A stretch of DNA of 40,427 bases from a virus, in IMG/VR virus record IMGVR_UViG_3300047548_000861, positions 1 through 40,427 of that record; one strand, given 5' to 3'. Positions 2,182 through 36,444 of this stretch are shown here, one piece after another. Below the pieces are notes generated by a model. That model made no database searches. It was not told the DNA's origin and worked only from the letters and a program-made list of their open reading frames with translations. Made by a program: the position numbers and the translations under genes. Within the stretch, counting starts at the first letter, position 1, and every line of letters begins with the position of its first letter.

Positions 2182-2657
2182 AATCCATAACAATCCATGG
2201 GATGCGCTGCCACCATGTGATTTCCGTCAACATGCTCAAACTTTGCCAACCTAACAAAATTGGGATTGCATTGGTGCATCAATGTATCCATGGTTTCTTC
2301 AATGCTGTCTGGCAATGCTAGATCAAAATCGTGTCGCAAAATTTCGTACCGATTGATTCCAACATAGGCATAGTCAAGGTCTCCAACCAGCGTCTTGATT
2401 TTTGAAATCAATTGAGATGTTGTCAATCCCATGAGCTTGGGCCCAAACAATATTACTCCTTGGTAGTCCGAATCACTTAAACGGATCTTGCGTTGACATA
2501 TTTCTTTAAACTCAGTATGGCTTCCCAACCATTTCCAAGCAATGTTGTGTTGGCATACAAAATCCAACATGACTTTTTCTTGCGGCAACACTGCCAAATT
2601 AGCTGTTATACCAATACCGCGGAGTTGTTGATCCCTCCAACGGTCATGATTAACCAT
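2169..2657 (-). CDS. Unknown protein, 162 aa
   Basis: Not recognised. A soluble alpha/beta protein with no signal peptide, membrane segment or metal motif. It includes a hydrophobic strand and loop, GVILFGPKLMGL, and a His-rich end (HVDGNHMVAAHPMDCYGL). Its start overlaps the stop of the helicase gene by 8 bases, so it is co-transcribed with primase and helicase. Position alone suggests only that it is expressed with replication genes. It and the following 173-aa gene look like accessory genes carried at the end of that operon. Confidence 0.65.
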   Translation of the reverse strand: MVNHDRWRDQQLRGIGITANLAVLPQEKVMLDFVCQHNIAWKWLGSHTEFKEICQRKIRLSDSDYQGVILFGPKLMGLTTSQLISKIKTLVGDLDYAYVGINRYEILRHDFDLALPDSIEETMDTLMHQCNPNFVRLAKFEHVDGNHMVAAHPMDCYGLCNK

Positions 2658-4104
2658 TTTTTATCTGACCCAGCAACTGCTTGAGTTTGGCACTTTGTAC
2701 ATCAGCTGTGATTTTAGGACCGTCACCAGCTTGGGCCATGGGTTTATCCCAAGCGTGTGTGCCACCTGTGGGTTTTTCCCACTTGGGAGGATCAGTTGGA
2801 TCTGCTGTTTTGCTGGCATTTTTAGCGCGAATAGCTTCCATGATATTGCCAGCTGGCGGTCTTTGTCCTGTATCTTCAATACCTGGATCAGTGATACGCA
2901 TGGTTTCGATGTTGTATTCCAAATCAATCTTTTGGCCCACGCCTGTACTACTACGCGACTTCATACACTGAATTTGATACTTGCCGCGCTCTTTCATTGC
3001 ACGACTTGTAAAGATACCAAACACGTTGTCTGCTGTGTTGATCTTAGAGATACCACCTGAAATATGGCTGTGGTCAAATTCAATCTCTTCCACTGCCGAT
3101 CGGTTCAACTGCGATGCTGTCACAAGCAAGATACCCAGTTCTTTGGCTAAGTTACGCAGTTCTTCTGAAACATACTTGTCCTTGACAAACAAGTCGTTGG
3201 GGCTGACTTTTGCACTCACAGGCATCAACAAGTCCAAGTAGTCTACCATCATAAAGTCTACTCGATGACCTGTTTGAATTTGATACTCTTTAAGGAATGC
3301 ACGAATGTCGTTGATGTTGCTCTGCGCTGGCATGGCTTTGACTCGATAGCTACCAGCTTTCTTACCCACCAATTTAACTTTGAGCGCCGCAGTTTCTTTA
3401 TCCCTGCGAATGTCTTTGGTACTCATGTTGGTCAACATGGCCGCGGTACGCAAACCCGTTAGTTCTTCTGACAGTTCTAGTGTAATGTACACACCATGCA
3501 AGCCCTGTTGAACCCAGTTCAAGGCAATATTCATCATCACCAGTGACTTACCTGAACCCGAGCCACCAGCAAAGATGTTGAGCTCACCACGACTGAAACC
3601 ACCGTACAACAGTTTGTCCATCTGTGGCCAGCCAGTGCTTACTTGCCCGCCGTTGTCAAAGTATTTGTTGAACATGCTTTCGGGATCCATCCAAAAGTCC
3701 ATGCCTAGATCTTTGGTCAAACTGATCTGCACAGCATCTTTGATCAGTTTTTCCACAGGCTCAAACTCACCTTTTTCCAGCAAGTCTGCTGACTTCAAAA
3801 TAGCACGTTCTAGTTCTTGGCGCTTGGTAAAGCCCTCAAACTCTTGCATGAACCACTCAAAGTGACCCTCATTGAGGTCAGGTACTGCTTCAAGCTTGAC
3901 TCCTGTGGCTGCGGCAATCTGTGTGCGCTCGGGCAGTGTTTTGTATTTGTCACTGTGTTCTTTGATAAACTCAGCTGCCGGTCGCAAGTTTTTGTCAAAG
4001 TTTTGCGGATTGTAGATATTTTGAACACGCACATAACTCTGTGCATCTTCCAACATCATTTCCAAGAACAACCGCTGAACATCAATCCCGTAATCTTTTA
4101 ACAA
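2650..4104 (-). CDS. Replicative DNA helicase, DnaB/gp41-like
   Basis: A 484-aa protein with the RecA-type core of DnaB-family helicases: Walker A GGSGSGKS (180-187) after the typical GFSRGELNIFAG strand, a Walker B-like MMVDYLDLL, and the DnaB-like segment LAKELGILLVTASQLNRSA. The N-terminal 130 residues are helical, as in T4 gp41. In T4 the hexamer unwinds the fork 5'-3' and binds the primase. The start is a TTG at 4104, backed by AAGGAAG about 10 bases upstream; the first in-frame ATG would cut into the N-terminal domain. The gene overlaps the primase 3' end by 23 bases. The C-terminal tail is Pro/Gly/Lys rich, perhaps a partner-binding tail. Confidence 0.92.
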   Translation of the reverse strand: MLKDYGIDVQRLFLEMMLEDAQSYVRVQNIYNPQNFDKNLRPAAEFIKEHSDKYKTLPERTQIAAATGVKLEAVPDLNEGHFEWFMQEFEGFTKRQELERAILKSADLLEKGEFEPVEKLIKDAVQISLTKDLGMDFWMDPESMFNKYFDNGGQVSTGWPQMDKLLYGGFSRGELNIFAGGSGSGKSLVMMNIALNWVQQGLHGVYITLELSEELTGLRTAAMLTNMSTKDIRRDKETAALKVKLVGKKAGSYRVKAMPAQSNINDIRAFLKEYQIQTGHRVDFMMVDYLDLLMPVSAKVSPNDLFVKDKYVSEELRNLAKELGILLVTASQLNRSAVEEIEFDHSHISGGISKINTADNVFGIFTSRAMKERGKYQIQCMKSRSSTGVGQKIDLEYNIETMRITDPGIEDTGQRPPAGNIMEAIRAKNASKTADPTDPPKWEKPTGGTHAWDKPMAQAGDGPKITADVQSAKLKQLLGQIKNG

Positions 4105-5050
4105 GTTTCTTCTTCCTTAATTCAATTTTAATTTTGCTGGTTTCCCTGGCCTGCATAATAGTTAGCAAGGTGGCCAATCGACCGTATTTCTTCACAGCGT
4201 CGTTAACGTCTTTACAACCTTCCCAATCAGGGATGCTCACTGCCCAACCCAATTCCACTGCACGGTCAATTAGTTCTATACCAGCGTGATCCTGGTCAGG
4301 CACTACTGTGATTTCTCGGCCTAGGTTTCTTATTAATCTTGCTTGAGCATCACTGATGTTGTTGTGCATCAGTGCAAGGCCGCCAATGCTGAGTGCATCA
4401 AAAATACCTTCCATGACCAACGCATGTTGCCAATTGTCGTGCTGCAAATCTGTGCCAAACACATAACCTGGTTGTGTGTGACTGATAAACTTAGGACTCT
4501 TGTCATCCAACATTCTAGCTGTCCAGCCAACCACTTGCCCATCATAGGTAAAAGGTATTGTGACGTGTGGTCGTACCCAATGTATACCGTCTGTGCGAAT
4601 TGTAGTCATAGCCGGAAAATCTTCGGGCACACAACGGTCTCTCAAGTATTTCCAGTAGAACTTTAGTTCAGGAGTTATAACTTCACTCCCTGGCGGGAAG
4701 TCATCCATCTCATTGAATTTGACTTCACTCAGTGCATTCAGTACTCGAATACGATCATCTAATATACCGTGTATGTTGCGATGTCGTAGGCTTTCTAAGT
4801 TGATTTGATTGATTTCACTTTCAGTCACACCTAGTTTATTCAAAAAACTACGTGCTTTATAACTCAGTGATCTTCCCAAAACAAAGCTGGCAGTGAAACC
4901 GCAGTTGAAGCAGTGATAGCTCCAGCCCTGTTCGGTGGCCTTGAGTCCTCCACGACTGCGCTTTTCTTGACAGCAGGGACAGTTAAAGCTGACCCAGCCC
5001 GAGGGCGTTTGCTTTCGTTTTGTAGGTAGATAACTCAGGATGTCAAGCAT
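4082..5050 (-). CDS. DNA primase, DnaG/gp61-like
   Basis: A 322-aa primase that makes RNA primers at the fork. An N-terminal zinc-binding site is visible as C24-X2-C27 and C47-X2-C50. A Toprim-type core follows, with MEGIFDALSIGG (the acidic Toprim glutamate) and VVPDQDHAG (the DxD pair). Length is close to T4 gp61. The gene is followed by the helicase with a 23-base overlap, the usual primosome pairing. A TTTACA-17-TATACT promoter ends six bases before the ATG and no Shine-Dalgarno is seen, so its mRNA may be leaderless. Confidence 0.9.
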   Translation of the reverse strand: MLDILSYLPTKRKQTPSGWVSFNCPCCQEKRSRGGLKATEQGWSYHCFNCGFTASFVLGRSLSYKARSFLNKLGVTESEINQINLESLRHRNIHGILDDRIRVLNALSEVKFNEMDDFPPGSEVITPELKFYWKYLRDRCVPEDFPAMTTIRTDGIHWVRPHVTIPFTYDGQVVGWTARMLDDKSPKFISHTQPGYVFGTDLQHDNWQHALVMEGIFDALSIGGLALMHNNISDAQARLIRNLGREITVVPDQDHAGIELIDRAVELGWAVSIPDWEGCKDVNDAVKKYGRLATLLTIMQARETSKIKIELRKKKLVKRLRD

Positions 5051-6155: not shown

Positions 6156-6163
6156 GTATTTAT
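6156..6163 (-). promoter_or_regulatory. T4-like late promoter box (ATAAATAC)
   Basis: Minus strand CATAAATAC, close to the T4 late consensus TATAAATA and matching the form reported for marine T4-like phages. It lies 15 bases upstream of the ATG of the virion-like gene, with GAGGA between. The first bases of the box are the complement of the start codon of the divergent gene at 6162. Confidence 0.5.
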
Positions 6164-6539
6164 GGGTAACAATATATTTGAAAAACTAACGGAAAAATAC
6201 CCGTTCATAACACTTTGCCTCTACGCCAACCAGGAGTATGTAGGGGTAGTACAAAACAGAGACGACACTGTGACCACTATCTACGACTTTGGATCAGTGC
6301 AAAATCAAGAAGACAAGCTGTTGTTTTTGGAGTTAGCCAGTCAGTGGTGGTGGGAAAGCAATCGCAGCATACCCATCAACATATTTCTGCGCCACGATTG
6401 GGACCGTTTTCGCGGTACTCTACGTACCTTTGTCAACAAAGACTTGGAAATCTTGCACGGCCCAACATGCAGTCTGCTGGACATAGCCCGCAAGAAAAGC
6501 AAGAGAAAATCAATTACGCTGGTGCGGCGTCTTGATTAA
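6162..6539 (+). CDS. Unknown protein, 125 aa, plus strand
   Basis: Not recognised. A soluble, charged protein with a Trp/Glu-rich centre (LELASQWWWESNRSIP) and a Lys/Arg-rich C-terminal tail (ARKKSKRKSITLVRRLD) that could bind nucleic acid. It is one of only five plus-strand genes in the window and the only one outside the glycan cluster. It is divergent from the virion-like gene 21 bases away. Its last 26 bases overlap, tail to tail, the DnaE-like gene on the other strand. No Shine-Dalgarno is obvious before its ATG. Frame length and codon content support a real gene. Confidence 0.7.
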   Translation: MGNNIFEKLTEKYPFITLCLYANQEYVGVVQNRDDTVTTIYDFGSVQNQEDKLLFLELASQWWWESNRSIPINIFLRHDWDRFRGTLRTFVNKDLEILHGPTCSLLDIARKKSKRKSITLVRRLD

Positions 6540-7092
6540 GCAAGTTCATATGTAAAGCCACTAAAGCAGCGTAGGCCAAGCTGTGGCTTTTCTTAAACAC
6601 AAATCCCCGACTGCTGTCCCCGTCCCACACTGATGCAAACACTTCGCTCCATGGGCGGTTTTGCAAGTGTGCCTTGCCCGGACGAATAATCGATATAAAC
6701 GCAGCCATTCTTGGAATTGAATCGGGCTGCATCTTTTTCAGCAAATCTGTATAGTTGCCCACGTGAACCAACTGACTGGCCCACTCAGTGTCAGTCCATA
6801 ATCTTTGCCAAGGTGGAGTTGCTGCCAACATCTGTTGATAGTGCTCAGGGCTTTGTACCAAACTGTAAACACTCATATTCAACAGGTCAATTTTGAAGTA
6901 GCCTCGTTGTTCAGCAGTTTCATAGTCCAAAGCAGCACAACCGTTGACAGGATCCCGTGGAATGTCTGTGACATAAATGCCAGAATTGTGTCGACGTACT
7001 TGACCACTAACTTCCAGGCGTGCAGGCACATGCTGAATTAACTTCAGCAGTGCATCCCTGTTGGGTAAGTCGATGTCAATATCTGCGCTCAT
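6514..7092 (-). CDS. Miniature DnaE-like (Pol III alpha-like) protein
   Basis: A 192-aa protein whose motifs follow the order of the DnaE palm and fingers. DIDIDLPNRD (4-13) resembles the PDFDVDF catalytic pair. H35-X2-G38 resembles the HAGG motif. FKID (66-69) resembles KFDFLG, which carries the third aspartate. KKMQPDSIPRMAAF then IIRPG (119-139) matches RLQPD...ALFRPG, and FKKSHSLAYA (166-175) matches FNKSHSAAYA. The PHP, tau-binding and OB domains of the roughly 1,100-residue enzyme are absent, as is most of the sequence between palm motifs. Homology looks real; polymerase activity is doubtful. It sits among structural-type genes, coupled (ATGA) to the fibre-like gene. T4-like phages normally replicate with a family B polymerase, so the role is open. 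Confidence 0.75.
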   Translation of the reverse strand: MSADIDIDLPNRDALLKLIQHVPARLEVSGQVRRHNSGIYVTDIPRDPVNGCAALDYETAEQRGYFKIDLLNMSVYSLVQSPEHYQQMLAATPPWQRLWTDTEWASQLVHVGNYTDLLKKMQPDSIPRMAAFISIIRPGKAHLQNRPWSEVFASVWDGDSSRGFVFKKSHSLAYAALVALHMNLLNQDAAPA

Positions 7093-10992: not shown

Positions 10993-11894
10993 CAGTAAGT
11001 CAATCTCCAATCGTGTAATTCAGGATCATACCTAAATTCAATCTCGGATCTAGTGCTGAATTTTTTATTGATACCCTTGGCCACATTGCCAAACCAACAA
11101 CGGTCACTGTCAAGTACAACATTTTGATAGCACATTTGCCATTTCAACACTATCATGGCGTTGCTCAAAGCATGATTGGGGTTGGGTATGGTAATGGCAA
11201 TGTCGCTTTCGGTATTGAAGCGATTGAAATCAACAACAACTGGTTTGGTTTGATACAGCTTTTTTAGTTTTAGATCGGTGAAACGATCCAGCATGGTAAA
11301 CAAACGATTGAGCTGGTTGGCCCGGAACACTGTGTCCTTGAGTTCATTCTGCTGTGAGAAATCTTGATTGATTGCTGCAACAAAATTACTGTCCACATTG
11401 ACTGAAGGACTGAAATCGTAAGCTTCGCTACGAGACAAGTCCAGGATAAACACCGGATGGTTCTCATAAGCTTCAGCCCAGATTCTAACTGATCCAGGGA
11501 TAAACGTACCTCCACGTTGGCAAACATGATTACTGAGCTTGAGCATGTCTTCGCCAAAGATCTGTGTGTTTATTGTTTCGCTGACATAGACATCGGCATT
11601 GATGTCAGTGTTTAAAAACTCACCTTCCACTACTTCAACACGATTACTGTAACCAGTGCGGGACAATATATCTTTGAGGTAATTGCATCTCAGTGGATCT
11701 CTTTCCACTGCAATGACTTTGCTGGCGCCGGACTGCACTGCCATTATGCTCAGTAACCCTGTGCCAGCACCAATGTCGCACACAGTTCGCCCCGGTGCAG
11801 CAAGCCCAATGGCTTGTCTGTAAAATGCGTTTCTGCCTTGATCGTTGAGCATGGGCAGAAACACCCCGTCGTCTTTGAAAAAGTCTAAGCTCAT
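10992..11894 (-). CDS. Protein arginine methyltransferase-like enzyme
   Basis: A 300-aa class I methyltransferase. Motif I is VCDIGAGTGLLS (38-49), followed by VIAVERD with the ribose-binding Glu 64. The diagnostic part is VSETINTQIFGEDM. Glu 106 and Glu 115 are nine residues apart, as in the double-E loop of protein arginine methyltransferases. A C-terminal IVLKWQM could correspond to the THW-loop region, but weakly. Arginine methyltransferases transfer methyl groups from SAM to guanidinium nitrogens. The target here is unknown and could be a host or phage protein. It overlaps uvsW (ATGA) and is coupled to a second methyltransferase. Confidence 0.7.
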   Translation of the reverse strand: MSLDFFKDDGVFLPMLNDQGRNAFYRQAIGLAAPGRTVCDIGAGTGLLSIMAVQSGASKVIAVERDPLRCNYLKDILSRTGYSNRVEVVEGEFLNTDINADVYVSETINTQIFGEDMLKLSNHVCQRGGTFIPGSVRIWAEAYENHPVFILDLSRSEAYDFSPSVNVDSNFVAAINQDFSQQNELKDTVFRANQLNRLFTMLDRFTDLKLKKLYQTKPVVVDFNRFNTESDIAITIPNPNHALSNAMIVLKWQMCYQNVVLDSDRCWFGNVAKGINKKFSTRSEIEFRYDPELHDWRLTY

Positions 11895-13360
11895 GCCACA
11901 GTCATCCAGTCGAGCCGTTCTTGTGTGAATGGATAGTTAGCTTCTTTGTAGTAGGCTTTTCGCTTGGTGAGGTGTCGCTTGGCGAACTTGCAGGTGCTGG
12001 TGACGTCCCAGATTTGAACAAAGTCTTTGTCCTCAGCTCGTCGGATTCCTCGGCCAATCGATTGTATGACTCTAACAAACGACTTGCCTGGCTCCACCAG
12101 CACCAAGTTAAATATGCGGGGTATGTTGATACCAACAGCGGCCACCCCATAAGTTGCCACGATAATTTTGTCATTGGATTCTGCGACTGAATCATATTCT
12201 TCCTGTCTATCTTTCGATTTTGTTGCCCCAGAGACAAATACTGCTCGATCCCCAAGGCGTTCTACTAATGCGTGTCCGGCAGCTACACGATCCACCAAAA
12301 CCAGCGTATTGCCAGTTTCGTTAACTTGCTGAACAAGATTGGCAATGGTGTCTAACCTGCCTTTCTCTTCCAACAAGTATTTTAATTCGCTTTGATATTC
12401 TTTGAATTCCACATGATCTACTAACTGCACAATGTTAACATGGCATTGTGCCAGCACACCTTGTTGCTGTAGTTCATTGGCACTGAGTCTACCAATAACT
12501 GGTCCAAGACTGACCAACAGTGATTGGCTTTCAAATTTCTCTTTGGGAATGGTTCCTGTCAATCCCCAGCGGATAGGTATCTTGCTCATTACCCCTGTGA
12601 GTAGAGTTTTCAGTGCATCTGCCTTGGCCATGTGTACTTCGTCCACCATGACACATACAACATCCTCAATAAAGTCTCCAATGGTTATGTCAGCAGTGCC
12701 AGATTTTGTGTTTTTCAGCAATACATTGAGACTTTGCCAGGTGCAAATGGTGTGCTTGTGTCCGTGTTCTTTGCGATCGCCAAAATAAACACCCACATCC
12801 AAGCCCACGTTGCGATAGTCTTTTTCTGTCTGTGTCACCAGACTCTTGTTGGGCACAATTACAATGCTACGCCCAAATGGTTCAACTGCCCCACTCAGAG
12901 TAGCAGTCATGATTGTTTTGCCAGCGCCTGTGGCCACTTCCTGTATGCACTGCGGGTTCTGTAAGAAGTTGTTGACAATCTCTACCTGGTAGTCACGCAA
13001 CATAATAGGCTGGCCTTCGGCGGGGTGACCTTTGGGCCATGTCTTGTATGCCCAGCGATTTTCTTCCACAAGATCAAAATCAAATCCAAAGGAGTAGTCA
13101 CGCTGGTCATCAAGTTCCACATCCCAGTTGTATTGTTCCAACATAGGCAATATTTCCGGCAACAGGTTTGTAAATGTGCTGCCGCCCAGTTGGAAGTAAC
13201 TTACTTTGCCGTCCCAGCGCCCTAGTCGAACTGCCGGGAGATATCTAGCATAAGGAACGTCGTATTTGAAAGCATTGACCAGACGCTTGCGCATGTCCAG
13301 GTCCAGGCCTTCGATCTTGATATTAACTTCGTCACGTATGACGATGGTTGCTGTTTTCAT
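11891..13360 (-). CDS. ATP-dependent DNA helicase, UvsW-like
   Basis: A 489-aa superfamily 2 helicase. After an N-terminal DNA-binding region come RDYQVEIV (Q-motif-like), EVATGAGKT (Walker A), VMVDEVH (DEVH box), LTGTIPK (motif III) and QSIGRGIRR (motif VI). In T4, UvsW remodels branched DNA and R-loops, moving the phage from origin- to recombination-dependent replication. The ATG at 13360 gives an ATGA overlap with the preceding gene and is preferred over an earlier in-frame start at 13384. It is followed by two methyltransferase genes, an unusual grouping. Confidence 0.9.
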   Translation of the reverse strand: MKTATIVIRDEVNIKIEGLDLDMRKRLVNAFKYDVPYARYLPAVRLGRWDGKVSYFQLGGSTFTNLLPEILPMLEQYNWDVELDDQRDYSFGFDFDLVEENRWAYKTWPKGHPAEGQPIMLRDYQVEIVNNFLQNPQCIQEVATGAGKTIMTATLSGAVEPFGRSIVIVPNKSLVTQTEKDYRNVGLDVGVYFGDRKEHGHKHTICTWQSLNVLLKNTKSGTADITIGDFIEDVVCVMVDEVHMAKADALKTLLTGVMSKIPIRWGLTGTIPKEKFESQSLLVSLGPVIGRLSANELQQQGVLAQCHVNIVQLVDHVEFKEYQSELKYLLEEKGRLDTIANLVQQVNETGNTLVLVDRVAAGHALVERLGDRAVFVSGATKSKDRQEEYDSVAESNDKIIVATYGVAAVGINIPRIFNLVLVEPGKSFVRVIQSIGRGIRRAEDKDFVQIWDVTSTCKFAKRHLTKRKAYYKEANYPFTQERLDWMTVA

Positions 13361-14220
13361 TCTAATAGTACCTGTTGCACCCACTGGCGTTGTGCAATTT
13401 CAAAAAGTAGGCTATCCCTAGCGCCTTGATATTCTAATTCGGCTACGGGAAATCGCAGTGGCTGTGCCTTGATATTATACACACTTTTAATGCTGTGCGC
13501 AACAAAAAAATCTTGATGTTCATCAATGTAGCGTTGGACTCGACCGTATATGTTGGTTAGGTCTCGATCATAAAATGCCACATTAAAGTCTGCACTGTAG
13601 TGACTGAAGGGGCGAAATGCATCGTCTCCTATGTACTTATCATTGTCATGGGCCAGATCCTCAACAGTTTTTCCAATTTCACAATAGTTTAGGTACACGG
13701 TACCAAACTTGATTCTCCAATCTCCGTACATCCCTTGTAGGTCCGAAGCAAGACGATGCACCTTGGGCATACCGAACCAAGTGCAAACAAATCTAGGTTG
13801 GGCTCCTGCGGCTACACTTTCGCATCGATGTACAGCCAAGTTCAATTCTGCCAAGGCCTTTCTCACAGATTCGGGTGCATTGTTCCAGTAGTCTGAATTT
13901 TGTTGATCCAACAAACCGTGATAGCGTTCAAAAATATTGTGCAAGTAGTTGAGACAGTCTTGTGTGTATTCAAACGGTCTGTTGATTATGACTTGATGTG
14001 CATTGATGGCATCAATACACTGTTGGATAGTGTCCACTGCACGTTTTCTCTCTTCAGCTGGAGTGCCAAATCCGTAGAATCTGTCGGGGTGGTCCAAGGG
14101 CCAGGCTGTTCTCTGGAGCATGCGGTCAACCCAGAGTTCAGCAATGGGTGAATTTTTAATTCGGAATCGTAATTCTAAATCGCCTTGTTGGCCCAGACGT
14201 ATCAGCAAGAATTTAAACAT
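13357..14220 (-). CDS. Unknown protein, paralogue of the 28604 gene
   Basis: A 287-aa protein of unknown function. It shares a clear set of motifs with the 274-aa product at 28604: LNLAVHR (127-132 region), GTVYLNYCEIGKT (173-185) and HYSADFNVAFYDRD (207-220). The conserved His, Tyr, Asn, Glu and Asp residues could form an active or binding site, but I recognise no family. It is the first gene before uvsW, and the paralogue lies between gp32 and uvsX, so both travel with recombination genes. A TTGACT-17-TATACT promoter ends six bases before the ATG, predicting a leaderless mRNA. Confidence 0.75.
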   Translation of the reverse strand: MFKFLLIRLGQQGDLELRFRIKNSPIAELWVDRMLQRTAWPLDHPDRFYGFGTPAEERKRAVDTIQQCIDAINAHQVIINRPFEYTQDCLNYLHNIFERYHGLLDQQNSDYWNNAPESVRKALAELNLAVHRCESVAAGAQPRFVCTWFGMPKVHRLASDLQGMYGDWRIKFGTVYLNYCEIGKTVEDLAHDNDKYIGDDAFRPFSHYSADFNVAFYDRDLTNIYGRVQRYIDEHQDFFVAHSIKSVYNIKAQPLRFPVAELEYQGARDSLLFEIAQRQWVQQVLLE

Positions 14221-14704: not shown

Positions 14705-14980
14705 TCACATACTCCCAAAACTGCCCGGCTTGCCAGCGTTGGGGTTCTCACACCGCACGCCTTTGCCAAACTCATCCATGACCTGTCGTGCTTGGCCTTT
14801 GTCCCCAATCACAAACTTATAGCCGTCAATGCATCGCATTTCGGTCATGCCGTTGATACCATAGCTGATGGTGCTGTTGTTACCTGCGCCGAACATAATA
14901 GGAGCAACAATCGCAGCCAGTATGCCGCAGATTGCAATCACAATCATCAGTTCAATAAGAGTAAATCCACGCTGTTTCAT
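14705..14980 (-). CDS. Type IV pilin-like protein with prepilin signal
   Basis: A 91-aa protein starting MKQRGFTLIELMIVIAICG, a canonical class III prepilin signal: a short basic leader, Gly-Phe cleavage site, the essential Glu at position 5 of the mature form, and a long hydrophobic helix. A small globular tail contains two Cys (50 and 77) that could form the pilin disulfide loop. A host prepilin peptidase would be needed to process it. The start is fixed by GGAG eight bases before the ATG. In a phage it may insert into or interfere with host pili or secretion pseudopili. Flanked on both sides by tiny membrane proteins. Confidence 0.8.
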   Translation of the reverse strand: MKQRGFTLIELMIVIAICGILAAIVAPIMFGAGNNSTISYGINGMTEMRCIDGYKFVIGDKGQARQVMDEFGKGVRCENPNAGKPGSFGSM

Positions 14981-14982
14981 TA

Positions 14983-15093
14983 TTAACTCCAGAGTGATAT
15001 TAGATATTCTGCAATACGGTAGAGACCATAAAAAGCCAATGCAAAATAACCAATGATGAATACAGCCGCCGCAATCTCTACCCACTTGTTCAT
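14983..15093 (-). CDS. Small membrane protein, 36 aa
   Basis: MNKWVEIAAAVFIIGYFALA then FYGLYRIAEYLISLWS, a single transmembrane helix with a charged start. GGAG precedes the ATG by five bases. Its stop codon TAA is two bases before the pilin ATG, so the two are translated in close succession. Function unknown; holin- or antiholin-like roles are possible for such short membrane proteins but not shown. Confidence 0.6.
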   Translation of the reverse strand: MNKWVEIAAAVFIIGYFALAFYGLYRIAEYLISLWS

Positions 15094-24147: not shown

Positions 24148-24827
24148 AATCGTTGCTGGCAATACTCAGTAAAAATTCTTTCACGATGCCACTCATCTCC
24201 TTGTGGCGTATCGGCAAACTCTTGGAAGCATGGTGTACCTAAGGTATAATGCAAGAGCTTGGCATCGGTATTTGGCCCGTATTCATCGGGCAACCAGTTC
24301 CATTCTTTTGGAAGTTCACCAATACGTTGATCTTCTAACCACGAGAAGCGGTGGAGCTCACTACCTGTGGATTGTTGGACGAACTCAGGGGTAAGTTTCC
24401 TGTTAGGAAAGCTAGCACAATTCCACAAAATAACACTACTCCAGTTTTTGCGAGGATAGTCTTCATTTTTTGCTCCTAGGTATTTTACAGGCATGCGAGT
24501 TTTGTAGTCGTGCTTGACCACTTGAACATCTTTGCTGGGATCGCGCATATCCCAAAGTTCAGCAATATCGCCACGAACAATCATGTCACCGTCAATGAAG
24601 ATGGCATGTCCAGAATAGTCCATTAGCCAAGGAACAAGAAAACGTGTGTAGATAAAATGGTTGCTGCCGTCAGTGTGTGTTTCTGTGTAGTCTCGAAACA
24701 AGTTCAAAGCCACAGGCACAATGGCCACTGGTCGACTGCTGTTTCTAATAACAGAATTAGCGCAGGTATGATATGCTATGGCTTCTCTGGGATCATACCC
24801 TATAAAGATAGGAATAATGTCTTTCAT
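24144..24827 (-). CDS. Glycosyltransferase, family 8-like
   Basis: A 227-aa protein with PIFIGYDPREAIAYH at the N-terminus, a segment typical of family 8-like transferases that recognise nucleotide sugars, and HAIFIDGDMIVRGDI carrying the DxD motif (Asp-Gly-Asp). KLLHYTLGTPCF near the C-terminus supplies the usual metal-binding histidine region. Cytoplasmic. Coupled by ATGA to both neighbours. Confidence 0.85.
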   Translation of the reverse strand: MKDIIPIFIGYDPREAIAYHTCANSVIRNSSRPVAIVPVALNLFRDYTETHTDGSNHFIYTRFLVPWLMDYSGHAIFIDGDMIVRGDIAELWDMRDPSKDVQVVKHDYKTRMPVKYLGAKNEDYPRKNWSSVILWNCASFPNRKLTPEFVQQSTGSELHRFSWLEDQRIGELPKEWNWLPDEYGPNTDAKLLHYTLGTPCFQEFADTPQGDEWHRERIFTEYCQQRL

Positions 24828-25588
24828 AGTCGCTCGATATCATCTTCTTCACATAGATCACCGTATTGAATTTCAATAAGTTTGAGCGGTTGGTCAGTTT
24901 CATTGCAAAGCTGATGCCACTCTGTTTTAGCTATCCATGTTGATTCGTGCGCAACCATGACACATTTTATGTCAGAGTCTGTGGTATTGGGATCAACTGT
25001 GTACACTGTTGCAGTGCCTTCAGCTACAAACCAAAATTCTGCACGGTGCTGGTGCCGTTGCATGCTCAAACAAGTCTTGGGATTGACTGTAAGCTCTTTG
25101 AGTTTGACCCCGGGGCCAACTTCGTGCAGCACACGATAGTATCCCCATGATCTTTGTGTGCGCGGCTTTTTCCAATCTTCAAGAATCCACGAACTAGAAT
25201 TTGCTTTGTTGAAGCCGCCAACGCCAAACTCAAATAAAACATTGTCATCAGCAACACTCATTTCAGGAATGTTGTCGCTGGTGCGATCTCCACCGTTGGC
25301 AAATACAATGGTGTCATTGGGGTAACGCATGCGTACCAAACGGATAGCATCACGGCTTGAGCCATCATCATCGTTGTAGACCACGACTTCGTCAACTACA
25401 TCCAATGCACTGACCAGCGCAAAGCGTTCGGTCATGGGCATGAACGGACGTCCTTTTTTGCGAGTTAGCCAAGCGTCGGAATTGACACCAACAATTAGTT
25501 TATCACCCAATTGTCGTGCTGCTTTGAAGTATGCTAAGTGGCCTGAATGGATGGGGTCAAAGCCCCCAGTAACTAGAACAATTTTCAT
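24824..25588 (-). CDS. Nucleotidyltransferase-cupin fusion
   Basis: A 254-aa two-domain protein. Residues 1 to about 135 form a cytidylyltransferase-like domain with VTGGFDPIHSGHLAYF (the HxGH motif, His 14 and His 17) and the SSSWIL stretch. Residues about 150-254 form a cupin: SMQRHQHRAEFWFVAEG (metal ligands His, His, Glu) and a later WHQLCNE. The first domain activates a sugar or alcohol phosphate with a nucleotide; the second resembles the isomerase half of phosphomannose isomerase-type enzymes. GTAAATA stands five bases before the ATG and no Shine-Dalgarno is seen. Probably supplies the activated precursor for the cluster. Confidence 0.85.
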   Translation of the reverse strand: MKIVLVTGGFDPIHSGHLAYFKAARQLGDKLIVGVNSDAWLTRKKGRPFMPMTERFALVSALDVVDEVVVYNDDDGSSRDAIRLVRMRYPNDTIVFANGGDRTSDNIPEMSVADDNVLFEFGVGGFNKANSSSWILEDWKKPRTQRSWGYYRVLHEVGPGVKLKELTVNPKTCLSMQRHQHRAEFWFVAEGTATVYTVDPNTTDSDIKCVMVAHESTWIAKTEWHQLCNETDQPLKLIEIQYGDLCEEDDIERL

Positions 25589-25609: not shown

Positions 25610-26062
25610 TTACACGGTGATATCTTCCATGCCGGCTGTGCGTAACTTCACAATGTGTCCCATTTGCCACTGTTTGGCATCAAGTCCTTTCATGATACCC
25701 AACCATTTGTTGCGCAGCAAAGCCACTTCGTTGATGATAGACTCAAAGTCAATTACTTCATCTTCACCGTCAACATACTTTTCAGCATCGCGGCTTGTGA
25801 GTGCTCGTGCATAGGCTTCCAAATACTTTTGGAAATGTTTTCGACGTATCTTACGCAGCTGAATATTGAGATAGTTGAGCACCGCTTCAATTTCTTGCAA
25901 CTGATTAAAACGATGTTCAGTAATGCCCGGAAGTTCTTTGATGTTGCGCTCAACTAAGCCGCCGATGCGACATTCCTTCTTGGCTTCTTCGAGCTCACGC
26001 TCGTAATGCTGGATAAAATCTGGAATGTTTCCAAGACTTGCTGTAATACGACTATACCACAT
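25610..26062 (-). CDS. uvsY: UvsY-like recombination mediator
   Basis: A 150-aa protein with the pattern of UvsY of marine T4-like phages: GITEHRFNQLQEIEAVLNYL, QLRKIRRKHFQKYLEAY, ALTSRDAEKYVDGEDEVID and INEVALLRNKWLGIMKGLDA. In T4, UvsY loads UvsX onto gp32-coated single-stranded DNA. It is basic and helical with no enzyme motif, as expected. It overlaps the radical SAM gene by 11 bases and lies in the same operon as uvsX. Confidence 0.88.
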   Translation of the reverse strand: MWYSRITASLGNIPDFIQHYERELEEAKKECRIGGLVERNIKELPGITEHRFNQLQEIEAVLNYLNIQLRKIRRKHFQKYLEAYARALTSRDAEKYVDGEDEVIDFESIINEVALLRNKWLGIMKGLDAKQWQMGHIVKLRTAGMEDITV

Positions 26063-27302
26063 AATTCAATTCTTTTGTTAACCAAGGAAACACTTGACGC
26101 CAATCAAGTCCTCGACGACGATCTATTTCTGTCAAAAACGCCTGCAATGACTTGAGTTCTTGATCATCCCGTTGATGTTGATTCCATTCAATCTGCAAAC
26201 CTTGCATGCTTTGTTTAGCTGTACGTTGATGCCAATCATCCTCGGGCATTTCAACTAGTATGCGACTAAAGTCACTGTCAAAAAATCCTGACCCAAATAT
26301 CTTGGGGTGTAGATATGGTTTGTTAACCACTACCATAAAGTACTGTTCGATCTGACGATGCTGACGATGCTGATTGATGTACTTAAAAAGTTCGGGCATG
26401 CTCTTCATGCCCAATCCTGTTATAGCCTGATTAATGCTAACACCAATCCACTTTTGTGCCAACACATACTCAAAATTTTGTTGCCACCGTGACATGTCTA
26501 GTCCATGTCTAATATACTCTTGCTCACTGCCCCAGCAATCAATACTGCAAATAAAGTCTAGTTTTTTAATGCGACGATGCTTGAGTAATATTTTAATACG
26601 ATCTAAAAACGTTTGCAACCTTGGCAGTGCAATGTTTAGATTGGTTGTAATAACCAGAGTTAGATGTGGATTGCTGTGTGTTTCTAGATAAGAAAGCACA
26701 TGCTCAAACTGTGGCTGAAACAATGGCTCACCGCCTAGTATGTGCAGTCGGCGTACATGGTGTCCGTGCTGATCCATCCATTGCCAAAACTTGTGTTCCA
26801 GCAAATCTAAATCGGGGTTGCGTGTACTGATGTTTTGCAATCGAACAGAGCCGTAGTTAAACTCACCAAAGCGTATGTTTTCTTGATAGATCTTGCTGCT
26901 GTATTTGTCTTCACAGTAGATACAACTTTGATTGCAGACATTGTCAATGCATATTTCGACTATGCGCGGAGTAACTGCCACTGCGGTAGGATCACTGTCT
27001 AACTCAGGCGGATACATATCAGGTATGCCTAATTGAAACTGGCGGTCACTAAAGCCGCCAGCCTGCTCTACAGAACTACAATACTCACAACCACCTGTGG
27101 GCCATTGTCCGGCCAACATCAACTGTCGGTCATTGACTTTAGATGGGGTGTTGTGAAAATTATCAAAGTCATTGAGATCAATTGGAGTCTCTCGAACTCT
27201 GTGACAAGAATTAGTTTTTCCCGAATAAAAGTTTATGGTGCTCCATGTCCACTTGAGTTGACAGGCTGGATCCGTTTTTATCGGGAAAAACTTTTGGGAC
27301 AT
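26052..27302 (-). CDS. Radical SAM protein between uvsX and uvsY
   Basis: A 416-aa protein with CNQSCIYC (Cys 123, 127 and 130; CX3CX2C) and LGGEPLFQPQ. The N-terminal 80 residues hold extra cysteines (14, 33, and CEYC at 72-75), suggesting an auxiliary metal or substrate-binding region. The substrate is unknown; by analogy with its family a peptide or protein modification is possible, but this is inference. It overlaps uvsY at its 3' end and touches the acidic 84-aa gene at its 5' end, so it is co-expressed with recombination genes. Confidence 0.85.
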   Translation of the reverse strand: MSQKFFPIKTDPACQLKWTWSTINFYSGKTNSCHRVRETPIDLNDFDNFHNTPSKVNDRQLMLAGQWPTGGCEYCSSVEQAGGFSDRQFQLGIPDMYPPELDSDPTAVAVTPRIVEICIDNVCNQSCIYCEDKYSSKIYQENIRFGEFNYGSVRLQNISTRNPDLDLLEHKFWQWMDQHGHHVRRLHILGGEPLFQPQFEHVLSYLETHSNPHLTLVITTNLNIALPRLQTFLDRIKILLKHRRIKKLDFICSIDCWGSEQEYIRHGLDMSRWQQNFEYVLAQKWIGVSINQAITGLGMKSMPELFKYINQHRQHRQIEQYFMVVVNKPYLHPKIFGSGFFDSDFSRILVEMPEDDWHQRTAKQSMQGLQIEWNQHQRDDQELKSLQAFLTEIDRRRGLDWRQVFPWLTKELNYVV

Positions 27303-34784: not shown

Positions 34785-35311
34785 GTGTATGTTGTAAGTC
34801 TATAACTGTTTTGTGGCACCGGCGTTAGCATGGCATGCCACAACAGCCGACGATAGCCAGTTTCGTCAGGCTGATTGATCATTATGTAACCGTCGTTGGG
34901 CTGTTCAGGAACTTGATGTCTCACCGCAGCAGGATCTTTGTACCAATAAAATGTTGTGCCAGGGCCGCGCCAAGTCAAGTGTAAGCTGCCCGGTAACTCA
35001 CCATCAGTGTGCATAGTACAGACGAATCCCGGTTCGTCGACCCAAAACGCTGTGCCAGCATAAGGTGCAATTCGTCGACCCAGTTGTTGCTCTAGGTCAG
35101 GCCATATAGATTCAAAATGCCTGTGCCAATCTGCGATCCAAGGTATAGATGATTCTTCAATGCGGCGTCGACGCCATTGTTCTTGTCCCTCTTGTCTTGC
35201 CCATGGCAAACTCATCCAATCCGTGGACATTACTTGATCCACAATGTGCTGTGGCATTACCTGTTGTATTTTGTAAAGATTACGCTCTTGATCAACTGGT
35301 GTTACTTGCAT
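34766..35311 (-). CDS. 2OG-Fe(II) oxygenase-like protein
   Basis: A 181-aa protein with a double-stranded beta-helix pattern. His 101-X-Asp 103 (MHTDGELPGS) and His 159 (LLWHAMLTPV) are the likely iron ligands, and Arg 171 could hold 2-oxoglutarate. This family hydroxylates proteins, nucleic acids or small molecules; the target is unknown. The ATG at 35311 is used because an upstream in-frame start lies deep in the preceding gene. It overlaps the radical SAM gene by 10 bases. Confidence 0.7.
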   Translation of the reverse strand: MQVTPVDQERNLYKIQQVMPQHIVDQVMSTDWMSLPWARQEGQEQWRRRRIEESSIPWIADWHRHFESIWPDLEQQLGRRIAPYAGTAFWVDEPGFVCTMHTDGELPGSLHLTWRGPGTTFYWYKDPAAVRHQVPEQPNDGYIMINQPDETGYRRLLWHAMLTPVPQNSYRLTTYTWIFPQ

Positions 35312-36444
35312 AGGTGCGCCAACTCCGGCCAAAGTTTTTTAAATTCACCAGCTTTGTCAGCATGGTACAATGTTTCAATTTTTTCAATGTGGTCTGCGAA
35401 CTGTGTACCCAACTTAGCATCAGGTGCTGTGATAGATTGATATTTTTCCAATGCTTGGTCAAAGAATCCTCGTTCGCTGTCAGTGGCAATGTTTAATGCA
35501 TAAAACTTTTCAAGTTCCTGTATTGCTAATGCAGCAACATCGGGCCCGTGCAAGAATGGATCAAGGTAACTGGGCTGAAACAAGTTTTGCCACAATACCG
35601 AAAGACCACGTTGATGAACAAATTCTCTGAACTCACACAGACGTGTGGCATTGTAGATGTTGTACACTGCATGTGCGCCGCCCCAGTGTCCATTGTGCTT
35701 CATTAAATTCTGCACAAGGTCTAAATTTTTCAACATCAGTTGCCAGTCGGTGCCGTAACGCACATATTCAAATCTATCCCCAATGTTGTCAAAACTAATA
35801 CTCCAACCCACACGTTGCCGTTGTTGCAGTTTTTGAAATATCTTGTTGTTTTCCAAGTCAACATTGAGGTTGGTTATCAGTGTTACTATGGCTGTGTCAG
35901 GGATGACGTCTAGCAAGCGTTCGTTTTCAGGCAGCAGCAATGGCTCGCCGCCGACCAAGGCAACCTCGTGAATATGCTCACGATGTTTTTCAATAAAATC
36001 ACAAACTTGTTGATAGTAAGGTCTTGTGCCGGACCGATAAAATACTTTTTTCAATGACGCCCATTTGCTACTGCAAGCTTCTCCGCAATAGTTACAGCTA
36101 AGGTTGCAAGTGATGTTCCATCTCACATCAAAAATCACAGGATAGTGATATTGATCCCCGGCTGTGGCATAATCAAAATTGGGATTGACGGAGTTGTGCC
36201 AGGCACGTTCTGAGCTGGCGCCTAGTCGTTCAGCTTTGACACAATTTTCACAATAAGCATGTGGCTTGCCTTGGGCCAAGGATGCACGTATCTCTTTGAG
36301 CTTGGGACCGTTGAGTATGTTTTCGATGGAGTCGTTCTCAAGGCTACCCAACATGTTAGGGTTACCGGCACAACAAGTCTTTACGCTTCCTCGAGGGTTG
36401 ATATGCAACCCTCGCCATGGGGCTGCACAATAAAAATTACTCAT
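35302..36444 (-). CDS. Radical SAM protein with N-terminal Cys-rich region
   Basis: A 380-aa protein with CNLSCNYC (Cys 113, 117 and 120) and VGGEPLLLPEN. The N-terminus resembles an SPASM-like segment moved to the front: CAAPWRGLHINPRGSVKTCC, then LGSLENDSIENIL and CENC, which would bind an auxiliary cluster in related maturases. A peptide or protein substrate is likely by family analogy. No Shine-Dalgarno; GTAAATA stands four bases before the ATG. It is followed by the 2OG-oxygenase-like and SGNH genes in one overlapping block. Confidence 0.88.
   Translation of the reverse strand: MSNFYCAAPWRGLHINPRGSVKTCCAGNPNMLGSLENDSIENILNGPKLKEIRASLAQGKPHAYCENCVKAERLGASSERAWHNSVNPNFDYATAGDQYHYPVIFDVRWNITCNLSCNYCGEACSSKWASLKKVFYRSGTRPYYQQVCDFIEKHREHIHEVALVGGEPLLLPENERLLDVIPDTAIVTLITNLNVDLENNKIFQKLQQRQRVGWSISFDNIGDRFEYVRYGTDWQLMLKNLDLVQNLMKHNGHWGGAHAVYNIYNATRLCEFREFVHQRGLSVLWQNLFQPSYLDPFLHGPDVAALAIQELEKFYALNIATDSERGFFDQALEKYQSITAPDAKLGTQFADHIEKIETLYHADKAGEFKKLWPELAHLCK

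Follow-up and report, generated by a model that had tools for sequence, protein, structure and literature searches.

Is DNA synthesis in jumbo phages shared between polymerases of two unrelated families? Bearing on this question is one short gene in the stretch of viral DNA analysed here (40,427 nucleotides, from IMG/VR record IMGVR_UViG_3300047548_000861; hereafter the window), in which a preliminary description had recognized a DnaE-like protein in a phage expected to carry a family B polymerase. The open reading frame was correctly placed at 6514-7092, on the minus strand, and encodes 192 aa as described; its ATG start shares 4 nt with the stop of the upstream gene. We refer to its product as the C-half, and to that of a partner gene, introduced below, as the N-half. 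The features that we assigned to the C-half gene are as follows, with residues of the cellular enzyme in E. coli numbering.

6514-7092, minus strand: C-half, 192 aa, phrog_11778; C-terminal half of a split mini Pol III alpha, predicted to bind metal and template (profile match, AlphaFold2, Foldseek, hhalign)
7069-7083, minus strand: DIDID, residues 4-8, equivalent to E. coli D401, D403 and D405, with D4 and D6 as the palm metal ligands (invariant in 212 relatives; register as in Mtb DnaE1 PDIDIDFDDRRR)
6991-7056, minus strand: residues 13-34, 22 residues in place of 99 in DnaE, the 77 missing ones corresponding to the thumb, E. coli 433-509 (domain limits from PMC4703070)
6979-6990, minus strand: H35-x-x-G38, equivalent to E. 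coli H511 and G514 (family conservation, DnaE profile alignment)
6886-6894, minus strand: K67-I-D69, equivalent to E. coli K553 and D555, the third catalytic Asp (family conservation, DnaE profile alignment)
6673-6684, minus strand: R137-P-G-K140, equivalent to the E. coli R639-P640 region (family conservation, DnaE profile alignment)
6571-6597, minus strand: FKKSHSLAY, residues 166-174, with H170 equivalent to E. coli H760, the proposed steric gate, and Y174 to Y764 (conservation; PMC8485763)

The motifs stand in the DnaE order, as had been proposed, and the earlier RPG and FKKSH assignments were right. All three palm aspartates are indeed kept, but the DxD pair had been placed one step off, at Asp 6 and 8: the E. 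coli motif reads P400-D401-F-D403-V-D405 and is matched by D4, D6 and D8 of the C-half, the catalytic pair being D4 and D6 (D401 and D403), with D69 matching D555. Among 212 unique C-half members, conservation is complete (1.00) at D4, D6, D8, H35, G38, P45, K67, D69, L71, R137, P138, K140, H170 and Y174. Throughout the C-family D401, D403 and D555 never vary, and D405 is kept in DnaE but is Asn in PolC (PMC3919608); because D8 corresponds to D405, the C-half is of the DnaE type. We also observed that K140, directly after RPG (6673-6675), belongs to a family-invariant RP[GASNE]K where E. coli has Pro642, and it may make a family-specific contact.

The relationship to DnaE is apparent from profiles as well as from the predicted fold. 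PHROG 11778, annotated as "DNA polymerase" (197 positions), covers residues 3-188 of the 192 with an E-value of 9.6e-51. When a 90-member C-half profile was aligned by hhalign with a 9-member DnaE profile, residues 33-139 fell on E. coli 509-641 (probability 95.8, E 7.7e-9), pairing H35/G38 with H511/G514, K67/D69 with K553/D555, and R137-P138-G139 with 639-641, at approximately 22% identity across the aligned part. The score of this alignment was 69.4, against a maximum of 22.7 in 30 column-shuffled controls. The AlphaFold2 model of the C-half has a mean pLDDT of 91.7 and a pTM of 0.82; in a Foldseek comparison with the PDB each of its top ten matches is a Pol III alpha, with a probability of 0.94-1.0 for eight, and the eleventh is noise. 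The query-normalised TM-scores are modest (0.36-0.52), as is to be expected because the thumb and part of the fingers are missing. Single-sequence searches of the C-half (Pfam, NCBIfam, and phmmer against the PDB) matched the RPG stretch alone, with insignificant E-values; the top raw PDB match, Vac8, was dismissed as a chance match. A family-profile hmmsearch against the PDB was also weak (E 0.055), and profile-profile and fold comparison were needed. Judged by these profile alignments and the predicted model, the C-half shares its ancestry with the palm and fingers of DnaE; as far as the fold goes, it withstands the refutation that the preliminary description had set, a predicted fold unlike that of the DnaE palm/fingers.

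A large part of the cellular enzyme is nevertheless absent. The thumb-sized gap falls between R12 and H35, the equivalents of E. coli R411 and H511, and the earlier estimate of about 90 residues missing between the aspartates holds up well: D6 and D69 are 63 apart, D403 and D555 are 152 apart, and the difference is 89. A second gap, of 88 residues, lies between RPG and FKKSH; among what is lost there are R709 and the 680-688 region, which are invariant in our DnaE set. The C-half also lacks the PHP, HhH, OB, clamp-binding and tau-binding parts, and ends near the equivalent of E. coli 775-780. A PHP domain was found in 0 of 20 related records, and we looked in related records for separate genes that could supply the missing fingers or PHP and found none, except in one genome with a separate 557-aa DnaE. 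Because of the 77- and 88-residue gaps, the lack of PHP, and the location of the GRGS motif in another gene (see below), we regard the C-half as a half-core derivative and not a usual DnaE.

The 557-aa protein is an observation in its own right. It is a PHP-less, single-chain DnaE-like protein encoded besides both halves in a 337-kb IMG/VR phage (G022; L409:450-2123, minus strand). Its closest phage match is in an uncultured 484-kb phage record, at 36.5% identity, and it is absent from the other 30 records searched.

Such a fragment could be a decoy or mimic that titrates the host clamp, tau or exonuclease, or else a decaying relic of a host dnaE, and a decoy for clamp or tau and a relic kept for binding had been suggested at the outset. 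Phages in general are known to use mimicry, and the C-half does resemble a fragment of the host enzyme. The regions by which DnaE binds the clamp and tau are, however, absent from it, as is the thumb, which in E. coli is in contact with the exonuclease (PMC4703070). An identity to DnaE of approximately 22%, coupled with invariants common to members from phages of very different hosts, is the opposite of host-tracking mimicry, and the C-half has no match in PADLOC. Decay is excluded by residue invariance, as the catalytic residues of both halves are unchanged across hundreds of sequences. We therefore consider a decoy or relic extremely improbable.

The remainder of the palm was found in a second gene. 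A search of C-half-bearing records with the Pfam DNA_pol3_alpha profile identified this gene in 8 of 9; the match covers positions 18-98 of the 260 in the profile. Its product, the N-half, is approximately 172 aa long (PHROG 11127, phrog_11127), carries the GRGS nucleotide-binding motif, and aligns without gaps to E. coli 323-393, with 17 of 71 residues identical. The N-half profile matches the DnaE profile with an E-value of 7.6e-9; its AlphaFold2 model has a pLDDT of 89.1, and the best Foldseek match is again Pol III alpha, though more weakly than for the C-half (probability up to 0.89). In 93 N-halves R103, E107 and GRGS do not vary, and the DnaE-invariant Arg390 is replaced by Glu in all 110 of 110 (e.g. 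L096:3001-3516). The N-half ends 1-3 residues past EF[LF] (E. coli 391-392), that is, at 393-395, in 110 of 110 cases, and C-halves begin 1-16, mostly 2-3, residues ahead of DxDxD (E. coli 401). The termini of the two proteins are complementary, and they therefore represent one DnaE palm, cut between E. coli 393-395 and 401. No hidden N-half was found within the window, itself a 40-kb fragment, and no fused or adjacent halves among the loci fetched; in GAP32 the N-half lies 33 kb from the C-half, near topoisomerase II genes and the clamp loader.

This second gene bears directly on the proposal, made in the preliminary description, of a stand-alone minimal primer or end-filling enzyme. A 192-aa protein acting alone as a minimal polymerase, primer-maker or end-filling enzyme would have the three metal ligands and the steric-gate His in a single chain, and that chain folds confidently by itself in prediction. 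Yet the part of the palm with GRGS, invariant in DnaE, resides in a second gene that is co-inherited with the first and cut in a complementary fashion, and we hold independent action of the C-half to be very unlikely.

By tblastn the C-half was found in 63 phage records, nearly all of them jumbo phages and including RaK2, GAP32, 121Q, PBECO4, Munch, CBB, PA5oct, Atu_ph07, Phosso, SCTP-2 and XacN1, with identities of 29-40% among the 60 listed. At least 591 stretches in IMG/VR encode a C-half relative (591 of 600 matched stretches). The N-half is also present in 59 of the 60 listed phage records that have the C-half, the exception being a 109-kb record. Among the IMG/VR contigs of at least 290 kb that we tested, all 4 with the C-half also had the N-half, and all 5 with the N-half also had the C-half; shorter fragments frequently carried a single half. 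In a mirror-tree comparison, the N-half and C-half tree distances were correlated with r 0.885 over 31 pairs (permuted maximum 0.26), and the nearest neighbour agreed in 15 of 31. Because shared ancestry alone can yield such a correlation, it demonstrates vertical co-inheritance and not contact between the halves.

A cellular origin of the C-half was considered and rejected: 84,980 prokaryote genomes gave 12 matches, all of them MAG contigs (L397-L408) labelled from Natrialbaceae to Pelagibacter, which are probably phage DNA binned into genomes. A family B polymerase, expected from the start, was identified (PF00136) in 19 of 21 related records, and the mini Pol III alpha is therefore additional to it. 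We also rejected a constant proofreading partner, as PF00929 was present in 11 of 13 isolates but in 0 of 10 large IMG/VR relatives.

The genes around the C-half gene in the window were assigned as follows.

2650-4104, minus strand: DnaB-like replicative helicase, gp41-like (phrog_19, E 1.1e-67)
4082-5050, minus strand: DNA primase, gp61-like, downstream in the same replication module (phrog_47, E 1.1e-37)
6162-6539, plus strand: convergent ORF of phrog_11637, sharing 26 nt with the 3' end of the C-half gene; conserved beside that gene, and not counted here as part of the polymerase (PHROG match, locus comparison)
11891-13384, minus strand: UvsW-type DNA helicase, upstream in the same module (phrog_16, E 1.3e-76)

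The C-half gene thus lies between UvsW and the primase-helicase pair. It had been described as lying among virion-type genes; virion-protein annotations do occur among relatives of certain flanking genes, but the nearest assignable genes are those for the primase, the DnaB-type helicase and UvsW. The same order of UvsW, C-half and primase-helicase occurs in GAP32, RaK2, PBECO4, XaC1, CBB, Phosso and Paride, the gene upstream of the C-half being annotated just as DNA helicase in Phosso and Paride. A homolog of phrog_11637 lies tail-to-tail with the C-half gene in 215 of the 227 loci with enough sequence, and overlaps it in 175, an unusually stable opposite-strand pair within a co-directional replication module.

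Several other ORFs of the window, all on the minus strand, deserve mention. Three radical-SAM-like ORFs (644-1678, 26052-27302 and 35302-36444), one with a SPASM domain, lie in a phage replication and structural region. The ORF at 14705-15085 carries a type IV pilin-like N-methylation motif (PF07963, E 1.3e-10), which is unexpected in a phage. At 24824-25588 a cytidylyltransferase-like domain is joined to a mannose-6-phosphate isomerase-type cupin, and ORFs nearby resemble glycosyltransferases by eye.

We believe that the C-half and the N-half quite probably constitute a split, thumb-less mini Pol III alpha of RaK2/GAP32/Atu_ph07-type jumbo phages, assembling non-covalently and performing short synthesis beside the family B replicase. 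Most likely, assembly would rejoin the palm across the cut described above. In the predicted active site, D4, D6 and D69 would bind the metals, K67 and H35/G38 together with the GRGS of the partner would contact the nucleotide, and H170 would act as the steric gate. Because there is no thumb, PHP, OB fold or clamp-binding tail, the pair would be slow, distributive, and without proofreading of its own, and an enzyme of that kind would be expected to extend primers or fill gaps over short patches, alongside the family B replicase of the phage. This role is our guess from the anatomy of the pair and its primase-helicase neighbourhood. The gene neighbourhood, together with an analogy, may point to primer extension in particular: in Bacillus, DnaE extends primers before hand-off to PolC. 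That no working C-family polymerase known is smaller than this pair, and that it serves solely for a brief hand-off in which primase products are extended before the family B replicase takes over, is a possibility that we put forward tentatively and regard as somewhat doubtful.

The change of Arg390 to Glu and the loss of the thumb and much of the fingers, including R709, mean that the pair could instead be a non-canonical nucleotidyltransferase or a DNA-binding assembly. Halves that assemble but no longer polymerise would form a DnaE-derived structural or DNA-binding subunit, holding primer-template junctions or tethering replisome proteins, and a family B polymerase is at hand for synthesis. 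DNA binding alone, however, explains poorly why hundreds of divergent sequences show no change in the three metal aspartates, the equivalents of D405, K553 and H511, GRGS, or the steric-gate His. Invariant metal- and nucleotide-contacting residues in both chains argue against a scaffold as they do against a decoy or relic, and we judge a non-polymerising subunit unlikely. If the split mini Pol III alpha is active, it would be a minimal C-family catalytic core, with approximately 265 residues of DnaE-like sequence and no thumb, PHP or clamp contact, and also a case in which nature has rebuilt the palm of a replicative polymerase from two pieces. Were the hand-off to the family B replicase also true, bacterial-type and archaeo-eukaryotic-type polymerases would be combined in one phage replisome.

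A two-gene split minimal DNA polymerase III alpha of group 2.2 jumbo phages was published by Iyer et al. in 2021 (PMC7824862), and the protein of the window is a further member of that system. The family (PHROG 11778 with its partner PHROG 11127) and the phage group are the same, as are, judged from relatives, the two-gene arrangement and the company of a family B polymerase, and nothing essential differs; the window contributes one more member, from an uncultivated phage whose N-half would be encoded beyond the 40 kb. Before that, the genome papers of CBB and Atu_ph07 had reported truncated Pol III alpha genes (172 aa, PMC5259590) and a Pol III alpha gene (PMC6102473), respectively. In the open-access literature that we searched, we found no bench test of the split enzyme. 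To the published description we add the exact breakpoint, the thumb-sized deletion, the Arg390 change, and the co-occurrence figures. With cellular DnaE (E. coli Pol III alpha) the phage pair has in common the palm and part of the fingers, the motifs DxDxD, HxxG, KxD, RPG and FxKSH, and the predicted fold; it differs in being made of two chains, in lacking the thumb, PHP, HhH, OB, clamp- and tau-binding regions and approximately 90 fingers residues, and in having Glu for Arg390 in the partner. The full-length or PHP-less DnaE proteins of phrog_405, found for example in Streptomyces, Mycobacterium and Pbunavirus phages, also place a C-family catalytic core in a phage, but they do so as a single chain with thumb and full fingers, and with no such split.
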